Below, piece by piece: positions 48,190-55,380 of a stretch of DNA of 64,000 nt; position 1 is the first letter of the stretch; each line of letters starts with the position of its first letter. The stretch is taken from the NCBI GenBank assembly GCA_900317745.1, contig ONHW01000001.1:124001-188000 (forward strand). Reading direction: 5' to 3'. A model generated the notes under the pieces. It did not search any database and had not been told where the DNA came from. It saw only the letters and a list, made by a program, of their open reading frames with translations. This DNA is from an uncultured Bacteroidales bacterium. GTDB taxonomy: Bacteria; Bacteroidota; Bacteroidia; Bacteroidales; Paludibacteraceae. The translations under genes and the position numbers were made by a program.

Positions 48190-49107
48190 TTATTTGCCGT
48201 CGAAACGCAGGTAGGGAAGCAGTCGTTGTCTTTCGTCGGGCGAAAAGACGGCAGACAGTTCATCGGATGAGTGCAGGCGGAGTTTGCGCCGCCTGAGGTC
48301 ATAAAGTTGCTCAGCCTGCTTGTAAGAGATATACGGATGGCTATAGAGTTGCTTGACAGAGGCGCGGTTGACGTCAATCGGTGTGATGAGCGACGTATCG
48401 GCATAGAGGTGCGGAAGGAGGCTGTCGATACGATCATTGGCAATCTCGCTGATCTCATAGAGTTGGGAGGTGGAATAATAGCCACCCAAGGCCTGGCGGT
48501 AACGGATGATCTGCATAGCGGTGAACCTGCCTACACCGCGCAATAGCATAAGTTCGGTGGTATCGGCAGTGTTGAGGTCAAGAATCGTATCACGCTTGAT
48601 ACGTGGAGTATAAGCGGTAATGACAGTATCGGTGTCCGATATAATACTGCCAATCCCAAAAAAACTTGCGAACATGGCAGTGTCGATCTGTATAAACGGA
48701 AGAAGAGTGGAGTAGAGCGAGTCGTTCATACCGTACAGCCGTTGCAGGTCTTCAGAACGGCGAAAAACCTTGCCGGCATTGCGGTAGCGGATCAGGTTGC
48801 GAGCCATCCATGGTTTGAGTCCGACCGTAACAAGCAGTGTGCTGTCGGCAGTGTTCGGATCAAAAGGCTGCAGACGGATAACGGGTTGCGGATAACGGGA
48901 GGCATATTGTGCACGTCTGGCGGCACGCTCCGACTCGTCCAACGAATCGAGGTAACTGAGGAAAGCCTGTTCGCGCTCGGGCTGAAGTGCAAAAAGTTCG
49001 GGAGCAGGGTGAGCAGCCTGCCACTTGCGGGTCAAATAAACACACGTCTCTACTGCCGTAACCATCAGCAGAACGATTACCAATCCTATCCACTGCTGTT
49101 TGCTCAT
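48190..49107 (-). CDS. Helix-hairpin-helix (ComEA-type) protein
   Basis: A membrane anchor at the start (IGLVIVLLMVTAVETCVYL, about 7-25) is followed by at least four HhH units in 305 residues: FDPNTADSTLLVTVGLKPWM (about 79), LDLNTADTTELMLLRGVGRF (about 174), VNRASVKQLYSHPYIS, and RRKLRLHSSDELS. ComEA-like HhH units bind DNA non-specifically; here the protein would sit outside the inner membrane. Its start overlaps the xseA stop (ATGA, 49104-49107). The fusion at 40178-42928 has a similar HhH part. Confidence 0.85.
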   Translation of the reverse strand: MSKQQWIGLVIVLLMVTAVETCVYLTRKWQAAHPAPELFALQPEREQAFLSYLDSLDESERAARRAQYASRYPQPVIRLQPFDPNTADSTLLVTVGLKPWMARNLIRYRNAGKVFRRSEDLQRLYGMNDSLYSTLLPFIQIDTAMFASFFGIGSIISDTDTVITAYTPRIKRDTILDLNTADTTELMLLRGVGRFTAMQIIRYRQALGGYYSTSQLYEISEIANDRIDSLLPHLYADTSLITPIDVNRASVKQLYSHPYISYKQAEQLYDLRRRKLRLHSSDELSAVFSPDERQRLLPYLRFDGK

Positions 49108-50258
49108 TGGGTAACGGAAGTCAGTTCGCCATCGGCAAGAACGGTGGTGATGGTTGTACCTGCGGGTACGTCGGCAGCGTGGCGGAGGACCTTGCCATCA
49201 CACAGAGTAAGAGAGTAACCCTTCCTGAAAATCTGTTCGGGCGAGTGCAGTCGGACAGCCTGCTCGAACATTCGAAGTTTGCCAAGCTCTGCCTGAATCG
49301 TGTTGCTGACCGTGTATTGCAGGGTGAGGCGCAGCTGTTCGATCTGCCTGCGGCGGAGGGCTACCATCTGTGTGGCTACATGAGCCAGGCGCTGGCGCAG
49401 TTCGTCAATACGTACGAGCTGGCGGGCGTTGTGGTCGATGAGTGCTTCGGCTACAGCGGTAGGCGTCTTGAGCGACTGATGCACCACCATATCCACGATA
49501 CTCACGTCGCGCGTATGACCTATACCCGACAAGATAGGCAGCGGAAACTGTGCACAATGCGAGGCAAGGGAGTAATCGTCAAAACAAGTAAGATCGGTAG
49601 TTGCACCTCCACCGCGAATGATAACCACGCTATCGAAGTCGTCGGCCACCCCGGCAATGGCACTGAGTGCGTTGATGATCGATCGTGCCGCCTGTTCACC
49701 CTGCATGACGGCAGGAAAGAGCTGTGTGCTGAACAGCAGGCGGTACGGGTTATCCGTCAGCTGGTGGCAGAAGTCGCCGTAGCCGGCTGCATCCTCGGCA
49801 GAGATAACGGCTATGCGGCGGATAATGGTAGGCAGGCTGAGCGACTTATTCATATCCAGCACACCATCTTTCTCCAGTTGTTGCAGAGTGAGTTGGCGCT
49901 GGCGTGCCAGGTCGCCCAGGGTAAAGGCAGGGTCGATATTACGGATATTCAGGCTTAACCCGTATATGGGGTGAAAATCCACACTGACCTCCACCAGCAC
50001 CTGCATGCCCGGTTCGGGACGTTTGCCTGTCTCCTGCTGAAAATAGGCGGATATAAGCTGCCAAGTATTGCTCCAGCAGGTAGCGCGAATCTTGGCGGCA
50101 AAGATTCCTTTCTCGCCTTTCTCAACGAGCTCAAGGTAACAGTGCCCCTTGTCCGTCAGTTGCGCAATCTCTGCACGCACCCAATACGTACCGGGCAGTC
50201 CCTGTTGAATACATTGATCCAACTCAGCGCATAACTCGGATAGGGATAATGATGTCAT
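49104..50258 (-). CDS. xseA: Exodeoxyribonuclease VII large subunit
   Basis: XseA with XseB degrades single-stranded DNA into short oligonucleotides. An N-terminal OB-fold (about 1-95, YWVRAEIAQLTDKGHCYLEL) is followed by the catalytic domain (VISAEDAAGYGDF, VVIIRGGGATTDL, LPILSGIGHTRDVSI). Length 384 is shorter than E. coli XseA (456). xseB is not adjacent. It overlaps, by ATGA, both the upstream PD-(D/E)XK-like gene (50255-50258) and the downstream HhH gene. Confidence 0.95.
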   Translation of the reverse strand: MTSLSLSELCAELDQCIQQGLPGTYWVRAEIAQLTDKGHCYLELVEKGEKGIFAAKIRATCWSNTWQLISAYFQQETGKRPEPGMQVLVEVSVDFHPIYGLSLNIRNIDPAFTLGDLARQRQLTLQQLEKDGVLDMNKSLSLPTIIRRIAVISAEDAAGYGDFCHQLTDNPYRLLFSTQLFPAVMQGEQAARSIINALSAIAGVADDFDSVVIIRGGGATTDLTCFDDYSLASHCAQFPLPILSGIGHTRDVSIVDMVVHQSLKTPTAVAEALIDHNARQLVRIDELRQRLAHVATQMVALRRRQIEQLRLTLQYTVSNTIQAELGKLRMFEQAVRLHSPEQIFRKGYSLTLCDGKVLRHAADVPAGTTITTVLADGELTSVTQ

Positions 50259-51238
50259 AGCCCGTAGAATTTCTTCACTGATTGATCTAAATCAAAATCA
50301 CACAGCACTTCTTGATAAGAAAGCGACGTTTCCAAAACCTTTAATTTCGATTCTGCTTTAATCATATTCAACTTGCGTGCGAGTTGCTTATATAAATCAA
50401 CATAAGAGTTGTATGACTTATGACCTTTATCTACGTCCTCGCTGAACTTAAATAAAATCTCTCCTAAATAAATATGGTCGTAATTCTTTCCATCGCCCTC
50501 AATGAAACTATTCTGTATTCCAAGATAGTGCGAAATCATCTGCTTGATACCTTGGCAATACTGCTGCGGTTTCCCCTTTGACGCTGAAATGGACCAAGTC
50601 TCAGTTCCACGAACAATCTCCAAATCTCTAATAGGCTGACCATCAGCAATCAAAGCACGGTAAATATCATCATACACAAAACTAATTTGGTCATATTTAC
50701 CATGCGTCAAATACTCTGAGAATTTTGATTCTAAGAACAATATAACGGACTCGCCAGCATCATTCCTGCCAATCAAAACCACGTCCATATTTGAGTTATG
50801 CTGACCTTCCTTATCAATAGGATTCTTCTGCTCAAAAAGACTCTTGTAGAATTCAACTTTTCTACCGTCAATCTCCATCGTTAACGGATGGTCTTTCGAT
50901 AAGGAGTAAAAGCACAACAGAGCCACCAATGAAGAAGAATGTAAAGTGGAAATCCGGCGATACTCTTGTCCATCGCCCGAAATAGCCATACAATACTTCC
51001 CTCCAAATAATTCATCCGTAATGCCAAATATATCCTTCAGATTTGCATATACCTGACATTCACTGACGTTTTTACCCATGTCTATAAAAGAGCATGAGTT
51101 TTCTGAGTACTTCCCCTGCCAATATGTCTGGAAGAGTTTTCCTTCCTTAATGCACTTCTCTACAAGAGGATTTTCCTTAAAGAATTGCTGATACAATTTG
51201 TCTTTCGGCAATTGCTGTTCTGAATTTATCTTAATCAT
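50255..51238 (-). CDS. Putative PD-(D/E)XK nuclease-like protein upstream of xseA
   Basis: I do not recognise this 327-residue protein as a named family. Around residues 149-173 NMDVVLIGRNDAG then SVILFLESKFSEYL gives the D...E-x-K pattern of PD-(D/E)XK nucleases. The rest is soluble, with no signal peptide. It has its own promoter (51312-51343) and its stop overlaps the xseA start, so XseA translation depends on it. It may be a restriction-type nuclease captured in front of a housekeeping gene; the catalytic role is inference. Confidence 0.55.
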   Translation of the reverse strand: MIKINSEQQLPKDKLYQQFFKENPLVEKCIKEGKLFQTYWQGKYSENSCSFIDMGKNVSECQVYANLKDIFGITDELFGGKYCMAISGDGQEYRRISTLHSSSLVALLCFYSLSKDHPLTMEIDGRKVEFYKSLFEQKNPIDKEGQHNSNMDVVLIGRNDAGESVILFLESKFSEYLTHGKYDQISFVYDDIYRALIADGQPIRDLEIVRGTETWSISASKGKPQQYCQGIKQMISHYLGIQNSFIEGDGKNYDHIYLGEILFKFSEDVDKGHKSYNSYVDLYKQLARKLNMIKAESKLKVLETSLSYQEVLCDFDLDQSVKKFYGL

Positions 51239-51311
51239 AGTTTTTATATTTTTCTCAACAAATTTGTGACTATCTTGGATAATTACGTTATTGTTCGCAA
51301 TTTTGCGACTG

Positions 51312-51343
51312 CAAAGTTAGTAAATTTTTCTAAAATTTGCAAA
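51312..51343 (-). promoter_or_regulatory. Promoter of the nuclease-like/xseA/HhH operon
   Basis: Exact consensus TTTG (51340-51343), N20, TAACTTTG (51312-51319), in the 123-base gap after the 106-residue gene. Confidence 0.83.
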
Positions 51344-51361
51344 TAATTGTCTAAAATTCTT

Positions 51362-51682
51362 TCATGAATCTTTTTTTTTGTGAAAATTCCTGTAATTCCA
51401 CCAGTAAGCAATGCGCTGGAAACAATTGAGATCCTCATTATAACAGCCATCCGGCGCTTCAATTTCAGCGATGATGTTTCGGATAGGATCCGTTATTGTC
51501 CACCACCAATATCTCCATAAAGGTTCTTGCGAGCAATAACAATATGGATGATCGTACTCTTTTGTCAGTTCGCAATACTTATCGATGATATCCATCATCA
51601 TTGCGATTTGCTTCTGTGACCCATATACCACAAATTCCGATTTCTGGTTAGGGCCATGATAAAATTCACCTCTGTAAATCAT
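51362..51682 (-). CDS. Hypothetical Trp-rich small protein, end of the polymerase-core operon
   Basis: These 106 residues match no family I know. They are rich in Trp/Tyr (PLWRYWWWTITDPIRN) with Cys (PYCYCSQEP) that could bind metal. Start overlaps the preceding gene's stop (ATGA, 51679-51682). Last gene of the six-gene operon that begins at 54587. Confidence 0.55.
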   Translation of the reverse strand: MIYRGEFYHGPNQKSEFVVYGSQKQIAMMMDIIDKYCELTKEYDHPYCYCSQEPLWRYWWWTITDPIRNIIAEIEAPDGCYNEDLNCFQRIAYWWNYRNFHKKKDS

Positions 51683-52026
51683 ATTTTAATAATTTTGACG
51701 TTTTTACCAGTTTGCTCCATTTTCCGAATGGAGTCAAACGTTCCTTTCGATTCTCCGGACGGGAAGGCGACCATCGCATCTGCGTCATCCACGATGAGCG
51801 AGTTTCGCACTATGGGAGCCCGTCGTCCGTAAAATGAATAATCAGGCAAATGTTCGATGAGCTTCAGGCGGTTTTCTTCGGCTAAACGCCTCGCGAAAGC
51901 GTCAATACCAACAGCACCGCCGGAAACAATTGTATCCACATTTGCCGAGATTACCCGACCAAGTTTTTCCTTGAATTCTTCATACGAGATACTTGGATTT
52001 CTCGTTCCAACAATAGCTAATTTCAT
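51679..52026 (-). CDS. SLOG-type Rossmann protein (DprA/YspA-like)
   Basis: From the ATG at 52026 the protein has 115 residues: MKLAIVGTRNPS at the start, VSGGAVGIDAFARRLAEE in the middle and ADAMVAFPSGESKGTFDSI at the end. These are the nucleotide- or sugar-binding loops of the SLOG superfamily, whose members include nucleotide sensors and DprA. The longer frame begins at 52155 but overlaps the sigma fragment. It starts 7 bases after the sigma-like gene. Confidence 0.7.
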   Translation of the reverse strand: MKLAIVGTRNPSISYEEFKEKLGRVISANVDTIVSGGAVGIDAFARRLAEENRLKLIEHLPDYSFYGRRAPIVRNSLIVDDADAMVAFPSGESKGTFDSIRKMEQTGKNVKIIKI

Positions 52027-52033
52027 ATTGACT

Positions 52034-52315
52034 TTAATTTTGGTTAAATGGTTTTCCTTCCATCGCTTGACGAATGAACCATACGGCATAAGGAACAAAT
52101 TTGCATCCACTTTCAGGATTGTACCGATGCCAAGCTTCCACCAATCCTGTTTCACCTCTGGTCAGAAGTTCCTCCATTGGAGCCGGGTTGCCGCCGCGCA
52201 GTTGACGACGAGCAACCGACTCAACGAAGGGATGAAACTGTTGTTTGACCTGTTCGTCCGTGAGATTTTTAACTCCAGACTCAATGTTTTTTACAAATTC
52301 CAAATTTTCGTTCAT
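52034..52315 (-). CDS. Truncated sigma-70 region-2-like protein
   Basis: The 93-residue protein (from the ATG at 52315) matches sigma-70 region 2: HPFVESVARRQL aligns with region 2.1 and ELLTRGETGLVEAWHRYNPE with 2.2, then KFVPYAVWFIRQAM with 2.3-2.4. It stops right there, lacking regions 3 and 4, so it cannot recognise a -33/-35 box but may still bind the RNA polymerase clamp. It may be a decoy or a partner of the polymerase-like protein upstream. Lies 84 bases after the DnaE-like gene. Confidence 0.75.
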   Translation of the reverse strand: MNENLEFVKNIESGVKNLTDEQVKQQFHPFVESVARRQLRGGNPAPMEELLTRGETGLVEAWHRYNPESGCKFVPYAVWFIRQAMEGKPFNQN

Positions 52316-52399
52316 ATAGAAAAACATTTAGTGTTACAATTCAGTATGTAAAAGATCGCTATATTATATATATACGAACGAGAGGTGTTATTGTTTTTG

Positions 52400-53572
52400 C
52401 TAACGGGTAATGGAACGCAGTTCTTCTTCGAGGAGTTTATAACAATCGCTATCTTTATCCCGAATAGTTGCAAACGCGTCCAAAAACTCCATTGGATAGT
52501 GCGCTTTGAGATATGCTACTTGGTATGCAAGCCATGTATAGCAAACGGAATGAGCCTTTAGGAAGGAGAAACGCGAATCATACATGGACTGCCAAATACG
52601 ATCAAGGGTCTGTTCGTTGTATCCATTTTGGTTCCCGCCGGATATAAACTTAGTTTTCATTACTTCCACTATAGGTTGATTCATACGTACGAGTGCCCAA
52701 CGTAGCATATTACTTTCTGCTGGTGTGAAATGGGCTATACGCTGAGCCAATAACATTGTTTGCTCTTGATAAACAATCATCCCATAGGTCTCCTTGAGAC
52801 ATTCTCCCACAATGGGAGGTCTTTCTTTGATCTCATCCTTACGATGCTTGCAGGCAATAAACTGCGGAATCTGTTCCATCGTAGGTGGTCGGTATAAAGC
52901 ATTCAGCGCAAGAAGATCATTGATGTTTTCCGGAGTAAGTTCGCGTAAGTATTTCTGCATACCTTCCGATTCGAATTGGAATACACCAACTGTACGACCT
53001 TCTTGGAAGAGACGGAATGTATGTTCATCATTTTGTGGGATGGCTTTTAGGTCTATGTCTATACCATGTTCCTGCTTGATATTGCTCAGGCATCGCTTAA
53101 TCATCGTCAGAACGGTAAGCCCTAAGATGTTCGTCTTCCCCGGACGTGTTTCTCCGAATTTCTGTGCTAAGTAATCCGTCACTTTATCACGTTCGCAAGA
53201 TTCGACATCAATATCAATTAACGGTACGACACTATTGTCTGAATAGAAACGTTCAAACAGCAGACCATATCTCAGCGGATCAATGTCGGTTATCTTGAGG
53301 CAGTACAACACGAGTGAGCCTGCTGCGGAACTGCGACCAGGTCCAACATCAATGCCCATTTTACGTGCGGCATTCACATAGTCTGCAACCATTAAAAGAT
53401 AACTGATAGTACGTTCATTGGAACATAGTGTTTGGTGTTCTGTTTCTGCACGATGGGTGAAAGCAGGAGTATGAATAAACTCGTTTCCATAACGCTCAAT
53501 AGCGCCTTGTAATACTTGTTGACGCAACTCTTCTTTGGATGAAGAGGGAGAATTAAATAAATGTGTGTTCAT
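52400..53572 (-). CDS. Minimal DnaE-like polymerase core
   Basis: The 390 residues align with the palm, thumb and finger domains of the bacterial replicative polymerase DnaE: GIDVGPGRSSAAGSLVLY, then PLIDIDVES (the two catalytic Asp), GVFQFESEGMQKY, INDLLALNALYRPP (third Asp), YGMIVYQEQTMLLAQ and FLKAHSVCYTWLAYQVAYLK. The N-terminal PHP domain and the C-terminal HhH, OB and tau-binding parts are absent. All three catalytic acids are present, so activity is possible. It starts 18 bases after the 248-codon frame. Canonical DnaE is about 1200 residues. Confidence 0.85.
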   Translation of the reverse strand: MNTHLFNSPSSSKEELRQQVLQGAIERYGNEFIHTPAFTHRAETEHQTLCSNERTISYLLMVADYVNAARKMGIDVGPGRSSAAGSLVLYCLKITDIDPLRYGLLFERFYSDNSVVPLIDIDVESCERDKVTDYLAQKFGETRPGKTNILGLTVLTMIKRCLSNIKQEHGIDIDLKAIPQNDEHTFRLFQEGRTVGVFQFESEGMQKYLRELTPENINDLLALNALYRPPTMEQIPQFIACKHRKDEIKERPPIVGECLKETYGMIVYQEQTMLLAQRIAHFTPAESNMLRWALVRMNQPIVEVMKTKFISGGNQNGYNEQTLDRIWQSMYDSRFSFLKAHSVCYTWLAYQVAYLKAHYPMEFLDAFATIRDKDSDCYKLLEEELRSITR

Positions 53573-53590
53573 TATAATAGTTGTTTTTAT

Positions 53591-54325
53591 TTAATACGGG
53601 ATACCTTTCTTGTTAAAATACATAGCAGTAGCCATGTTGGAGGGTTTGAGGCGAACAACAAAAGCCAAGCGCTGTTTGAAATCGTCCTTCTCAATAGCAA
53701 GTTGCACCGCATCAAATGAGGTGACTTTTGCAAGCGGCAGGTTAAGAAGATATTGAGCCCTTACGTAGCCGATCTCAAAACGCTTCTGAAAGCGCGCACA
53801 TGCCTCTTTGAGGTCTTTGGAAATGCGAACGAAATGAATAAACTCCTCCAAATTATCTACCACAAGCCCACAGCATTCCAATTCGTCAAGATGTCGTTTG
53901 ATTGCACTTATTTCCGCATCAATATGATTCATCATATACCATGCGGAGGTATGAAGCAAGCGAACGTTACGAATACGAATGGATTTCGTATCCGAGGTTT
54001 CGAAGTCAGGCAATCCTTCATCAAAATCATCAGGTTCTTTCAGGTAGTTTTTGGGCGGTTCGGTAAATGTACGTTTGTACGTATCAACGTAGTGCTGCAA
54101 AAATGCAGCACGTTCAGTCGAGTCAGCTTGTTGGATTTCCTGTTCCACATTCTCTATGGGGCTGAAGCCGAAATTCTCCAAGAAGGAGATTTCGTTGTAG
54201 TTCGGCATGTCAATCACAGCTTGTCCTGTAGGCGTGAAGTCTAATAGATTGGGTCTCATAGTTTCTGCATTTTGAAGGCAATGCTTAGCATTGCGTGAAA
54301 CATTATTGATTCGAATCTCGCGCAT
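53591..54325 (-). CDS. Hypothetical protein before the polymerase core
   Basis: No family recognised in about 244 residues starting at the ATG 54325 (the frame extends to 54337 with a TTG). It is soluble, acidic in the middle (YLKEPDDFDEGLPDFETS) and probably helical in the second half. It overlaps the upstream 94-residue gene by 23 bases, so it is co-transcribed, and lies 18 bases before the polymerase core. Confidence 0.6.
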   Translation of the reverse strand: MREIRINNVSRNAKHCLQNAETMRPNLLDFTPTGQAVIDMPNYNEISFLENFGFSPIENVEQEIQQADSTERAAFLQHYVDTYKRTFTEPPKNYLKEPDDFDEGLPDFETSDTKSIRIRNVRLLHTSAWYMMNHIDAEISAIKRHLDELECCGLVVDNLEEFIHFVRISKDLKEACARFQKRFEIGYVRAQYLLNLPLAKVTSFDAVQLAIEKDDFKQRLAFVVRLKPSNMATAMYFNKKGIPY

Positions 54326-54587
54326 AGTAAATGTCAAAATAGCTACTTACGATGGAAGCGACTTGCGCTTCAGCTTGCTTGTCGGTGTATTGCCAGCCGC
54401 TTTCACACACGGCATAGTCAGCCAACTGAGCTTTGATGGCCAGGTGGTTGGAGGTCAGATAGTCCATGACCAGTTCTTGCAACTTGCCGCAGATTTTCTG
54501 CTGCCAATCAGCAGGTGGGTTGACGAGACAGCCCTGCATGGACTCTAAGTTGGGGAGAGCGAATTGAATTTTGATTTGATTTTCCAT
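54303..54587 (-). CDS. Small hypothetical protein, first gene of the operon
   Basis: This 94-residue protein shows no known domain. It starts MENQIKIQFALPNLESMQG and is helical in the second half (KQAEAQVASIVSSYFD). Its ATG is next to the large inverted repeat at 54588-54650, which probably controls it and the five genes behind it. Confidence 0.55.
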   Translation of the reverse strand: MENQIKIQFALPNLESMQGCLVNPPADWQQKICGKLQELVMDYLTSNHLAIKAQLADYAVCESGWQYTDKQAEAQVASIVSSYFDIYYARDSNQ

Positions 54588-54650
54588 ATTAGCAAAAATT
54601 AACGTTATAGTACCTTAATACGAATGAGAAACGTTAGTATTTTTGCTAAT
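54588..54650. promoter_or_regulatory. Large inverted repeat in front of the polymerase-core operon
   Basis: ATTAGCAAAAATTAACGTT (54588-54606) is matched by AACGTTAGTATTTTTGCTAAT (54630-54650), which is its reverse complement with two extra bases, around a 23-base centre. A regulator could bind as a dimer; the XRE protein next door is the obvious candidate. No canonical promoter box was clear. Confidence 0.7.
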
Positions 54651-54666
54651 TTTGATATGGACATAT

Positions 54667-54702
54667 AGAAAAAAGCCTTGTATTCAAATGGATACAGGGC
54701 TT
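54667..54702 (-). terminator. Intrinsic terminator of the GtrA/XRE operon
   Basis: On the minus strand a 13-bp imperfect stem (54673-54685 / 54690-54702, two G-U pairs) is followed by TTTTTT. It lies just after the XRE gene stop and insulates it from the polymerase-core operon. Confidence 0.8.
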
Positions 54703-54733
54703 ATGGCGGGATTAGGAGAGGCGAAGATTTTTC

Positions 54734-55354
54734 TTAATTTTCCTTCAAAAGTTGTTTATAGAACGAACTTTCCTTTACGCGTTTGGCTGACCAATTACGC
54801 ATGTATGTGTGTTCTTTACGCACCAATGCAACAAGACGTTTGCTCTCTTTTTCGGCTGCTTTCTCGCGCTCTGCTTCTGCGCGCTCTTCCACATTGATAG
54901 GCGCAGGAGTTGCGGGCTCTATGTTTAAATAGATATCAAGGACATCAGCAATACGCAGGAGCGTTTTGTATGTGGGCGAAGTTTGTCCGCTCTCGATGTG
55001 TGAGTAATTGGGTGCGGCGATACCTACGAGCATAGCCACATCCTTAGCCACAAGACCCCGTTTAAGGCGCACCTCACGAATGAGCGCACCGATATTCTGA
55101 CGCACATCCTCGTCCTCAAAGAAGAGACGAGGCACGAACCCCTCGCGCTTACAATGCTTGATGACATACGAGATGACATCTATGCGATCCGCAGACTTGA
55201 TATCATCGTAAAAAAGATGCTCTATTCGAGTAGCCATCCAATCATAGGTAAGTTTACCTCGCTCTGGGGGCAACACGAACGAACAGAACAATTCGTCCTT
55301 CATCGTAAAAACCTGAACGATTTTTTCGTTGACCAATTTAACCTTAACATCCAT
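54734..55354 (-). CDS. XRE-family DNA-binding regulator with an unknown N-terminal domain
   Basis: From Met at 55354 the protein has about 206 residues. Residues about 80-145 contain a helix-turn-helix: IGALIREVRLKRGLVAKDVA and MLVGIAAPNYSHIESGQTSP then LLRIADVLDIYL. The N-terminal 75 residues are unassigned and the C-terminus is a charged helix (EERAEAEREKAAEKESKR). A longer start at 55366 is possible. It follows gtrA closely and faces the inverted repeat at 54588, so it may regulate the polymerase-core operon (inference). Confidence 0.8.
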   Translation of the reverse strand: MDVKVKLVNEKIVQVFTMKDELFCSFVLPPERGKLTYDWMATRIEHLFYDDIKSADRIDVISYVIKHCKREGFVPRLFFEDEDVRQNIGALIREVRLKRGLVAKDVAMLVGIAAPNYSHIESGQTSPTYKTLLRIADVLDIYLNIEPATPAPINVEERAEAEREKAAEKESKRLVALVRKEHTYMRNWSAKRVKESSFYKQLLKEN

Positions 55355-55380
55355 CAGTAAATACAAATATAAAGATAGGG

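Follow-up and report, generated by a model that had tools for sequence, protein, structure and literature searches.

Introduction

Several anti-phage systems, among them PARIS, Panoptes, PrrC and Ronin, sense the action of a phage on a host or decoy component and then fire an effector, the sensed agents being anti-restriction proteins, DNA mimics or nucleotide sponges (PMC12409349). In one phage-defence island repression is exerted by a BrxR-type WYL regulator, roughly half of whose homologues adjoin defence systems (PMC9122601). Here, an island of eight genes was analysed on the minus strand of a 64,000-nucleotide stretch of DNA (the window; positions 124,001 to 188,000 of contig ONHW01000001.1, assembly GCA_900317745.1) from an uncultured Bacteroidales bacterium of the family Paludibacteraceae. 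The island extends over positions 50255-55366 and encodes, in order of transcription, a helix-turn-helix (HTH) protein of the HTH_3 family, p94, GyrF, DnaEc, Sig2, SLOG, p106 and a REase-ARP nuclease. The source genome (G000) is a 2.6-Mb draft in 38 contigs, and its genus comprises 178 genomes including G000; the handles L, P and G denote loci, proteins and genomes, respectively.

If the reading proposed below is right, the island would share the sensing logic of PARIS, Panoptes, PrrC and Ronin as set out in PMC12409349, and would differ in what serves as putative decoy, namely copies of enzymes at the core of replication and transcription. The likeness to BrxR and CapW (PMC9122601, PMC9122588) lies at the level of WYL-WCX proteins beside four variants of the island, whereas the window locus uses a specific leader and an HTH_3 protein unrelated to them. 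The island nuclease shares a PD-(D/E)XK domain, with its D, E and K, with the REase-ARP and PGN_0703 putative restriction endonucleases but is fused or coupled to dead replisome pieces, and no methyltransferase was found among the island proteins scanned. Sig2, a 97-residue piece of region 2, weakly matches the sigma-70-related MzaA of the MZA system (20.4 bits in PADLOC; 26 bits against an NCBIfam cut-off of 800), and the other MZA components were unmatched in the PADLOC scan. DnaEc is homologous in its palm and fingers to Bacteroidales DnaE, the DNA polymerase III (Pol III) alpha subunit, and differs from it in that it is dead, is encoded in a nuclease island and lacks the PHP, thumb, OB and tau-binding parts and the third catalytic Asp. 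PADLOC 2.0, run on the eight window proteins and ten relatives, returned no complete set of system components; the partial single matches were to ShosA, PsyrA, MzaA, HTH_VI, RmrA, other HTH models, WYL, Cas3c, mad8 and PDC-S11. No description of this gene set was found in the open-licence literature searched.

As judged from sequence, several of the conserved island proteins are truncated copies of host machinery, mostly dead or dying: the palm and fingers of DnaE, the C-gate of GyrA, sigma-70 region 2 and, in other species, DnaB. We propose, with a probability of roughly 0.42, that the locus belongs to a regulated, defence-type island whose parts are shuffled within one Paludibacteraceae genus and in which a nuclease effector would be coupled to replisome and RNA polymerase baits. 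An earlier note on this DNA had taken the locus for a six-gene operon at 51362-54587 around a minimal DnaE polymerase, perhaps a defence or phage-derived module that copies or senses nucleic acid. The cluster is real, its six open reading frames (ORFs) are co-directional on the minus strand and an accessory or defence role is supported; the extent was drawn too narrowly, as the nuclease gene (50255-51238) and the HTH regulator gene (54737-55366) travel along, and a minimal polymerase, the copying of nucleic acid and a phage origin were not supported.

The DnaE piece

52400..53572, minus strand: DnaEc, dead DnaE palm-fingers piece of 390 residues; D120 and D122 kept, third Asp replaced by N148, thumb deleted

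The DnaE-like core was recognised by Pfam (finger 2.1e-50, pol3_alpha 1.1e-32) in two blocks, residues 15-145 and 155-317, and was aligned to Taq Pol III alpha likewise in two blocks, residues 37-167 (the end loosely) and 146-377. Residues D401, D403 and D555 of the E. coli enzyme, which we take to be the catalytic acids, and the presumed location of the thumb were placed on DnaEc by the alignment, in which K146-T147-N148 stands opposite K616-M617-D618 of Taq and the E. coli chains match query position 146 from residue 553. The third catalytic Asp (E. coli D555) is an Asn in DnaEc because N148 aligns with Taq D618; the earlier statement that all three acidic residues are kept was therefore wrong, the Asp of INDLLALNALYRPP being another residue. 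The second and third catalytic positions are 25 residues apart in DnaEc and 167 in host DnaE, the thumb segment being missing. Of the PHP, HhH, OB and tau-binding parts reported as lacking, the PHP, OB and tau-binding parts are indeed absent, and the thumb is gone as well.

Structure prediction of the core, a check that the earlier note had proposed, yielded a model with a mean predicted local distance difference test (pLDDT) score of 90.1 and a predicted TM-score of 0.89, which superposes on Pol III alpha with a TM-score of 0.86-0.89 by query length over the best 14 chains, the closest solved folds being 4iqj, 2hpi and 7pu7. DnaEc thus has the palm and fingers fold of an active C-family polymerase and lacks the thumb and the set of three Asp; it is, on sequence grounds, a pseudo-polymerase kept by selection and predicted to fold. 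A minimal active accessory polymerase would be in keeping with two catalytic Asp, a good predicted fold and related thumbless forms that retain three Asp, but it is scarcely credible with the third Asp changed to Asn, His, Gln or Thr throughout the window subfamily and the thumb missing, and for the window protein it was rejected on these two losses.

Selection on the island genes

The ratio of nonsynonymous to synonymous substitution rates (dN/dS) was calculated for pairs of relatives, excluding those in which synonymous change was saturated. For DnaEc it was 0.12-0.16 in all eight pairs with dS >1, for GyrF 0.07-0.20 except in one near-identical pair (0.51), for p94 0.04-0.12, for the HTH protein 0.08-0.17 and for the REase-ARP nuclease 0.11 (one pair, against L025), which indicates purifying selection on DnaEc, GyrF, p94 and the HTH protein. 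Values for Sig2 and SLOG (0.11-0.44) are less sure owing to overlapping ORFs, and DnaB_C pieces gave 0.23-0.50. These values bear on the idea that the island is debris, made up of decaying dnaE, gyrA and rpoD duplicates beside a restriction nuclease: parts are broken in places (Sig2 in L050, GyrF in L025) and dN/dS is raised in some close pairs, but the DnaEc values, those of 0.20 or less in most GyrF, p94 and HTH pairs, and the retention of the 373-390-residue form down to 60% identity make it very improbable. A core that is a fragment of a degrading dnaE, which the earlier note had named as the refutation of its own reading, is rejected on the low dN/dS and on recurrence across loci.

Relatives of DnaEc and their descent

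An alignment of 108 rows was assembled from 92 of 160 listed relatives, the window protein, host DnaE and 14 locus proteins. In the 52 rows of the eroded group without a nuclease fusion, the spacing of the second and third catalytic positions is below 100 in 42, at least one Asp is lost in 25, both hold in 20 and neither in five, and all 20 rows of shortest spacing have N, H, Q or T in place of the third Asp, P0052 having lost the first Asp too. The 44 nuclease-fused rows, among which P0153 carries no DnaE and L054 equals P0121, all differ from D-D-D; the third column is a gap in every one, and the first two Asp are kept in two. Three Asp and full spacing are found in 11 of the remaining 12 rows, P0029 being a fragment without the region. 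Longer three-Asp forms (L051, L060, L061, L062, P0016) are 10-20% identical to host DnaE in the thumb and 50-52% in the fingers, as against 22-61% and 55-84% in eleven other DnaE proteins. A 909-residue DnaE (L077, 1768-4494; PHP, palm and fingers by Pfam) lies near dinB on a plasmid of Prevotella sp. E2-28, with 21% identity to host DnaE in a diverged thumb and 66% in the fingers. P0119, P0076, P0065 and P0112 (541-545 residues) form a separate dead DnaE family in which the first Asp is changed to Ala and the third to Asn or Gly; the 541-residue P0119 family had no match at 1e-95 in 374 genomes of the order and 178 of the genus, a negative that carries no weight because the search had no positive control.

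A midpoint-rooted tree was calculated from 66 finger regions, the first DnaE copy of the nuclease fusions being too degraded to place. The eroded forms other than P0052 make up one group (41 rows, 99/92) within a Bacteroidales group (50 rows, 100/99), P0052 branching just outside the former (42 rows, 85/90); outside the eroded group and inside the larger one lie host DnaE and the DnaE of Bacteroides, of Phocaeicola and of the unverified human-gut phage scaffold L074. Since the eroded forms branch inside Bacteroidales DnaE, they descend from a Bacteroidales dnaE, cellular or borne by a mobile element, and one capture followed by erosion fits better than many captures. Viral matches of DnaEc are distant (28-31%). 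In phage and plasmid records all its matches were below 60% identity, and the four such records examined (L074-L077) hold DnaE ORFs of about 909-1268 residues. Scans of IMG/VR with GyrF and with the L058 nuclease, which as single-protein scans reach close relatives only, found no close relatives; together with the position of the DnaE pieces inside Bacteroidales DnaE, this leaves the suggestion of a phage-derived module without support.

Two Asp, the fingers KxH and the greater part of the GPGRSSAAGS loop are conserved in the alignment, and SLOG proteins are nucleotide binders. Both would suit a sensor of deoxynucleoside triphosphates or DNA ends, in which palm and fingers bind nucleotides and, with SLOG, report a change in the pool to the nuclease. 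Residues around the fingers site are nonetheless altered in the window protein (LRW in place of LRR, by eye), its third Asp is lost and the first two Asp are also changed in most nuclease-fused DnaE segments, so that such a sensor is rather improbable.

The nuclease and its fusions

50255..51238, minus strand: PD-(D/E)XK nuclease of the REase-ARP family, 327 residues; Pfam PF22558 1.5e-6, 28.4 bits against a cut-off of 27

Both the family profile and the D...ExK motif were found in the window nuclease (N-M-D...E-S-K, by eye), which has 745 homologues; one relative, P0189, is named by NCBI as a PGN_0703 family putative restriction endonuclease. A 519-residue protein, P0215, combines ABC-ATPase domains with a segment that covers 40% of the window nuclease at 86% identity, and is a chimera or an assembly error. 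In a search for proteins with a nuclease region, whose length window left out stand-alone nucleases, all 40 proteins found carry a DnaE or DnaB domain by Pfam; 39 of them have the loose motif N-x-D...E-x-K and 33 a stricter form, and the polymerase triad is kept in none of the nuclease-DnaE fusions. The nuclease is joined to DnaE in P0123, to DnaE and DnaB in P0121, P0136 and P0150, and to DnaB only in P0153. In L069 an HTH gene is followed by one for a 620-residue protein consisting of nuclease, dead DnaE and Sig2 residues 29-65 (78% identity); the 818-residue protein of L054 carries nuclease, DnaE, a DnaB_C piece and DnaB_N, and P0136 carries nuclease, two DnaE segments (by eye) and DnaB_C. 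The DnaB_C pieces of L054 and L055 have ERT/GRT at the expected GKT of Walker A, and Walker-like motifs are kept in P0136, P0150 and P0153 (both by eye). At 1e-15, 15 of the 178 genus genomes encode a nuclease resembling the L058 one, either stand-alone or in a fusion, a count in which the window's own, more distant nuclease does not figure. A 948-residue protein of L061 (1288-4134) comprises an apparent short nuclease remnant (by eye), a GyrA-like segment, PHP and DnaE.

Direct fusion to DnaE, DnaB_C and Sig2 would also fit pieces that act as address tags and bring the nuclease to the forks or transcription complexes of invading DNA, dead DnaE providing fork or nucleotide contacts, DnaB co-assembling with the helicase and sigma region 2 touching RNA polymerase. 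The Walker-like DnaB motifs of P0136, P0150 and P0153 would fit such targeting, as would the retention of region 2 in Sig2, since part of this region binds the beta' clamp. However, the tau- and clamp-binding C-terminus, which attaches DnaE to the replisome, and the thumb, which grips DNA, are both lost, and tags of this kind would have no obvious means of sparing host forks; we regard targeting as unlikely.

The remaining island proteins

53591..54337, minus strand: GyrF, an N-terminal part without a family and a C-terminal part (about residues 147-232) like the GyrA C-gate and coiled coil
52034..52327, minus strand: Sig2, sigma-70 region 2 fragment of 97 residues without regions 3 and 4; PF04542 1.2e-9
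51679..52155, likely start ATG 52026, minus strand: SLOG/DprA-like Rossmann protein; PF02481 8e-11, phrog_289 1.3e-19
51362..51682, minus strand: p106, 106 residues, without a family; no Pfam match, recurs in the island
54303..54587, minus strand: p94, 94 residues, without a family; no Pfam match

The C-terminal part of GyrF was compared with the C-gate and coiled coil of genus GyrA using hhalign (probability 96.3, E 1.9e-9, 86 columns, 26% identity), and its N-terminal part is conserved; single-sequence matches were weak (Pfam DNA_topoisoIV 9.6e-5, below the cut-off; PDB GyrA 0.006). The relation to GyrA rests on sequence profiles because the structure model of GyrF is too poor (pLDDT 42.8), and the match covers the 86-column C-gate region, the gate with the catalytic Tyr and the C-terminal pinwheel of a full GyrA being absent. 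In L057-L061 the GyrA-like piece forms the N-terminus of the DnaE relatives, and L062 ends at a contig edge there. Of the three proteins that the earlier note had left without a family, the one at 53591-54337 is accordingly GyrA-related at its C-terminus, and p106 and p94 remain without a Pfam match. An in-frame fusion of the first GyrF residues to DnaEc was seen in L025 (2182-3429, the same as L065; a 415-residue ORF), and genome G098, to which this locus belongs, encodes on another contig (L053) an intact GyrF and a further DnaEc that runs off the contig end.

Profile searches confirmed the DnaE, sigma and SLOG assignments. Sig2 has region 2 but not region 4 of a full sigma-70 factor, and part of it occurs fused to nuclease and dead DnaE (L069). 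SLOG is retained in L025, L054, L055 and L056; p106 is 90% identical in L050 and 40-50% in L025, L054, L055 and L056, and p94 is 82-91% identical across four loci. In L050 (5418-5679) Sig2 is split over two frames and SLOG was not found, the downstream p106 being the copy conserved at 90%. Of the several ATGA overlaps reported, that of SLOG and p106 was seen at 51679-51682, but the overlap of the SLOG and Sig2 ORFs is likely apparent because SLOG probably begins at ATG 52026 and not at the listed GTG 52155.

Leader element and regulators

54588..54655, minus strand: leader element before p94, inside a 17-nucleotide inverted repeat
52328..52403, minus strand: leader element before Sig2 (TTAGCAAAAAYDNTAAC...TTCGTAT); first copy of direct repeat D1
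54737..55366, minus strand: HTH (HTH_3) protein; HTH_3 9.2e-11

One leader element, consisting of TTAGCAAAAAYDNTAAC followed by TTCGTAT (TTCGATAT in L051), is shared by cassettes of the island. At no more than one mismatch, 17 copies were found in eight HTH-type loci, of which 15 stand 48-76 nucleotides upstream of an island ORF; the remaining two stand before Sig2, which is disrupted in L050 and begins within a longer ORF in L054. The tally leaves out two-mismatch matches (L056, L058, L069, L090) and one in L068 with a single mismatch, which is without TTCGTAT and is not followed by an ORF. Full copies are confined to loci with the HTH gene, none occurring in the HTH-less loci scanned, and 58 kb of window sequence beyond the island yielded none. 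The 54-nucleotide direct repeat D1 (52350-52403, 54596-54649) is the leader element itself, and since the leader precedes several cassettes, D1 could also act as a recombination point for shuffling. The large inverted repeat of the earlier note has no clear counterpart, no inverted repeat found being both long and good (the longest has 30 nucleotides at 73%); an operon-adjacent inverted repeat (54583-54599 / 54639-54655, 17 nucleotides, 88%) brackets the leader.

The HTH_3 protein is likely the regulator of the leader element. A WYL-WCX protein was found in each of the four HTH-less loci with a candidate regulator that were scanned (L052, L058, L068, L071), whereas the window locus has HTH_3 and no WYL-WCX regulator. 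Probable control of the operon by an HTH or WYL regulator would also suit a poison, in which dominant-negative fragments, once derepressed, stop host replication and transcription and the nuclease is a parallel effector. The fragments do derive from essential multi-subunit machines, and the GyrA-like part is the dimer-gate region, but DnaEc without the known replisome-binding parts would have little to compete with and a poison needs no direct nuclease fusion; we consider it improbable.

Distribution and genome setting

Strong GyrF relatives (E <1e-80) were found in eight of the 178 genus genomes, the 108 genomes with GyrF matches at 0.001 representing mostly GyrA itself. The HTH gene is likewise present in eight and occurs together with strong GyrF in seven, on one contig in six of these and on different contigs in G098. 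Among 393 genomes drawn from the order the cluster was seen in one, the source genome. Gene order resembles that of the window in L050 and L051, and in L054-L056 it is Sig2, SLOG, p106, HTH, one or more further genes, the nuclease-DnaE fusion, GyrF and DnaB_C; by sequence, the genus includes other species in which these parts have been rearranged and joined to one another. The earlier note had counted it against itself if the same genes never co-occurred elsewhere; sets of them recur at other loci of the genus. Its suggestion of an accessory, perhaps defence, module gains support from the patchy occurrence in the genus, the nuclease within or fused to the island proteins, the WYL-WCX regulators and defence-candidate neighbours. 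The last, scanned with PADLOC as ten neighbours at six loci, comprise a Fic protein in L050 and PDC-S01 ATPases in L058 and L068 and lend weak support because such families are common.

The island is flanked by xseA (49104-50258) on one side and by the GtrA-like and ksgA genes (55381, 56031) on the other. Its GC content is 0.40-0.43 in 2-kb windows, against 0.49-0.52 on the flanks; other stretches of the window, at 21-24 kb and 32-34 kb, are also near 0.42. The 3' end of the nuclease gene shares an ATGA (50255-50258) with the beginning of xseA, which encodes a housekeeping exonuclease, and the two may therefore be translationally coupled. In genome G132, whose xseA is the closest relative, different genes adjoin xseA, and no clean empty site was found. 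Among named relatives, the closest are draft genomes of Paludibacteraceae (L025, P0121).

Discussion

We infer that the dead pieces act as baits. A phage protein whose target is host DnaE, DnaB, gyrase or sigma, such binding serving the shutdown or hijack of replication and transcription, would take the mimic instead, and binding of the mimic would unleash the fused or co-encoded nuclease, aborting the infection. The HTH protein, or the WYL-WCX protein at other loci, would hold the cassettes silent, and SLOG may contribute a nucleotide signal. Baits are preferred because the lost parts serve catalysis and docking on the host replisome, while the fold is retained together with much of the palm and fingers, and they are preferred over targeting and poisoning because both of these would favour retention of the docking parts.

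Several points weigh against this reading. The gene functions are predictions and the genomes are draft assemblies, we know of no phage protein that binds pieces of the DnaEc, GyrF or Sig2 type, and both the restraint of the nuclease by a bait and the response to infection are inferred. In the window locus the nuclease is a separate, unfused gene. The Walker-like motifs in the DnaB_C of P0136 and P0150 are awkward because a pure bait would not need them, and DnaEc, with two Asp and much of the fingers kept, may have residual nucleotide or DNA binding. Three Asp are intact in 27 of the 52 non-fused rows of the clade, 22 of them with spacing below 100, and near-full spacing goes with three Asp in five of the 52; nor is the thumb contrast sharp, since P0069, outside the clade, has 22% identity in the thumb and 55% in the fingers. 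The reduction of GyrF to 21-25 N-terminal residues in L025 and the broken Sig2 in L050 indicate that single pieces are dispensable. Finally, dN/dS is 0.32-0.34 in two close DnaEc pairs, 0.30-0.47 in close pairs of a 534-residue form and 0.75 at dS 0.02 in one nuclease-fused pair; the raised values of the latter two and of DnaB_C can mean weaker constraint or too few changes.

The bait reading may, still more tentatively, be cast as integrated-decoy immunity, in which the nuclease carries, by fusion or in its operon, killed copies of the phage-targeted DnaE, DnaB, gyrase and sigma-70 that are swapped between species. The proposed likeness to the integrated-decoy immune receptors of plants is that an attack on the replisome itself would trigger defence.

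Even without the bait, pseudo-polymerases and replisome fragments that have radiated, are preserved, and are tied to a nuclease with one shared leader make up a gene organisation unreported in the open-licence literature searched. If the bait reading is true, it would be a bacterial counterpart of the plant integrated-decoy receptors, aimed at the takeover of replication and transcription by phages, and the identity of each dead piece would predict the host protein attacked by local phages.

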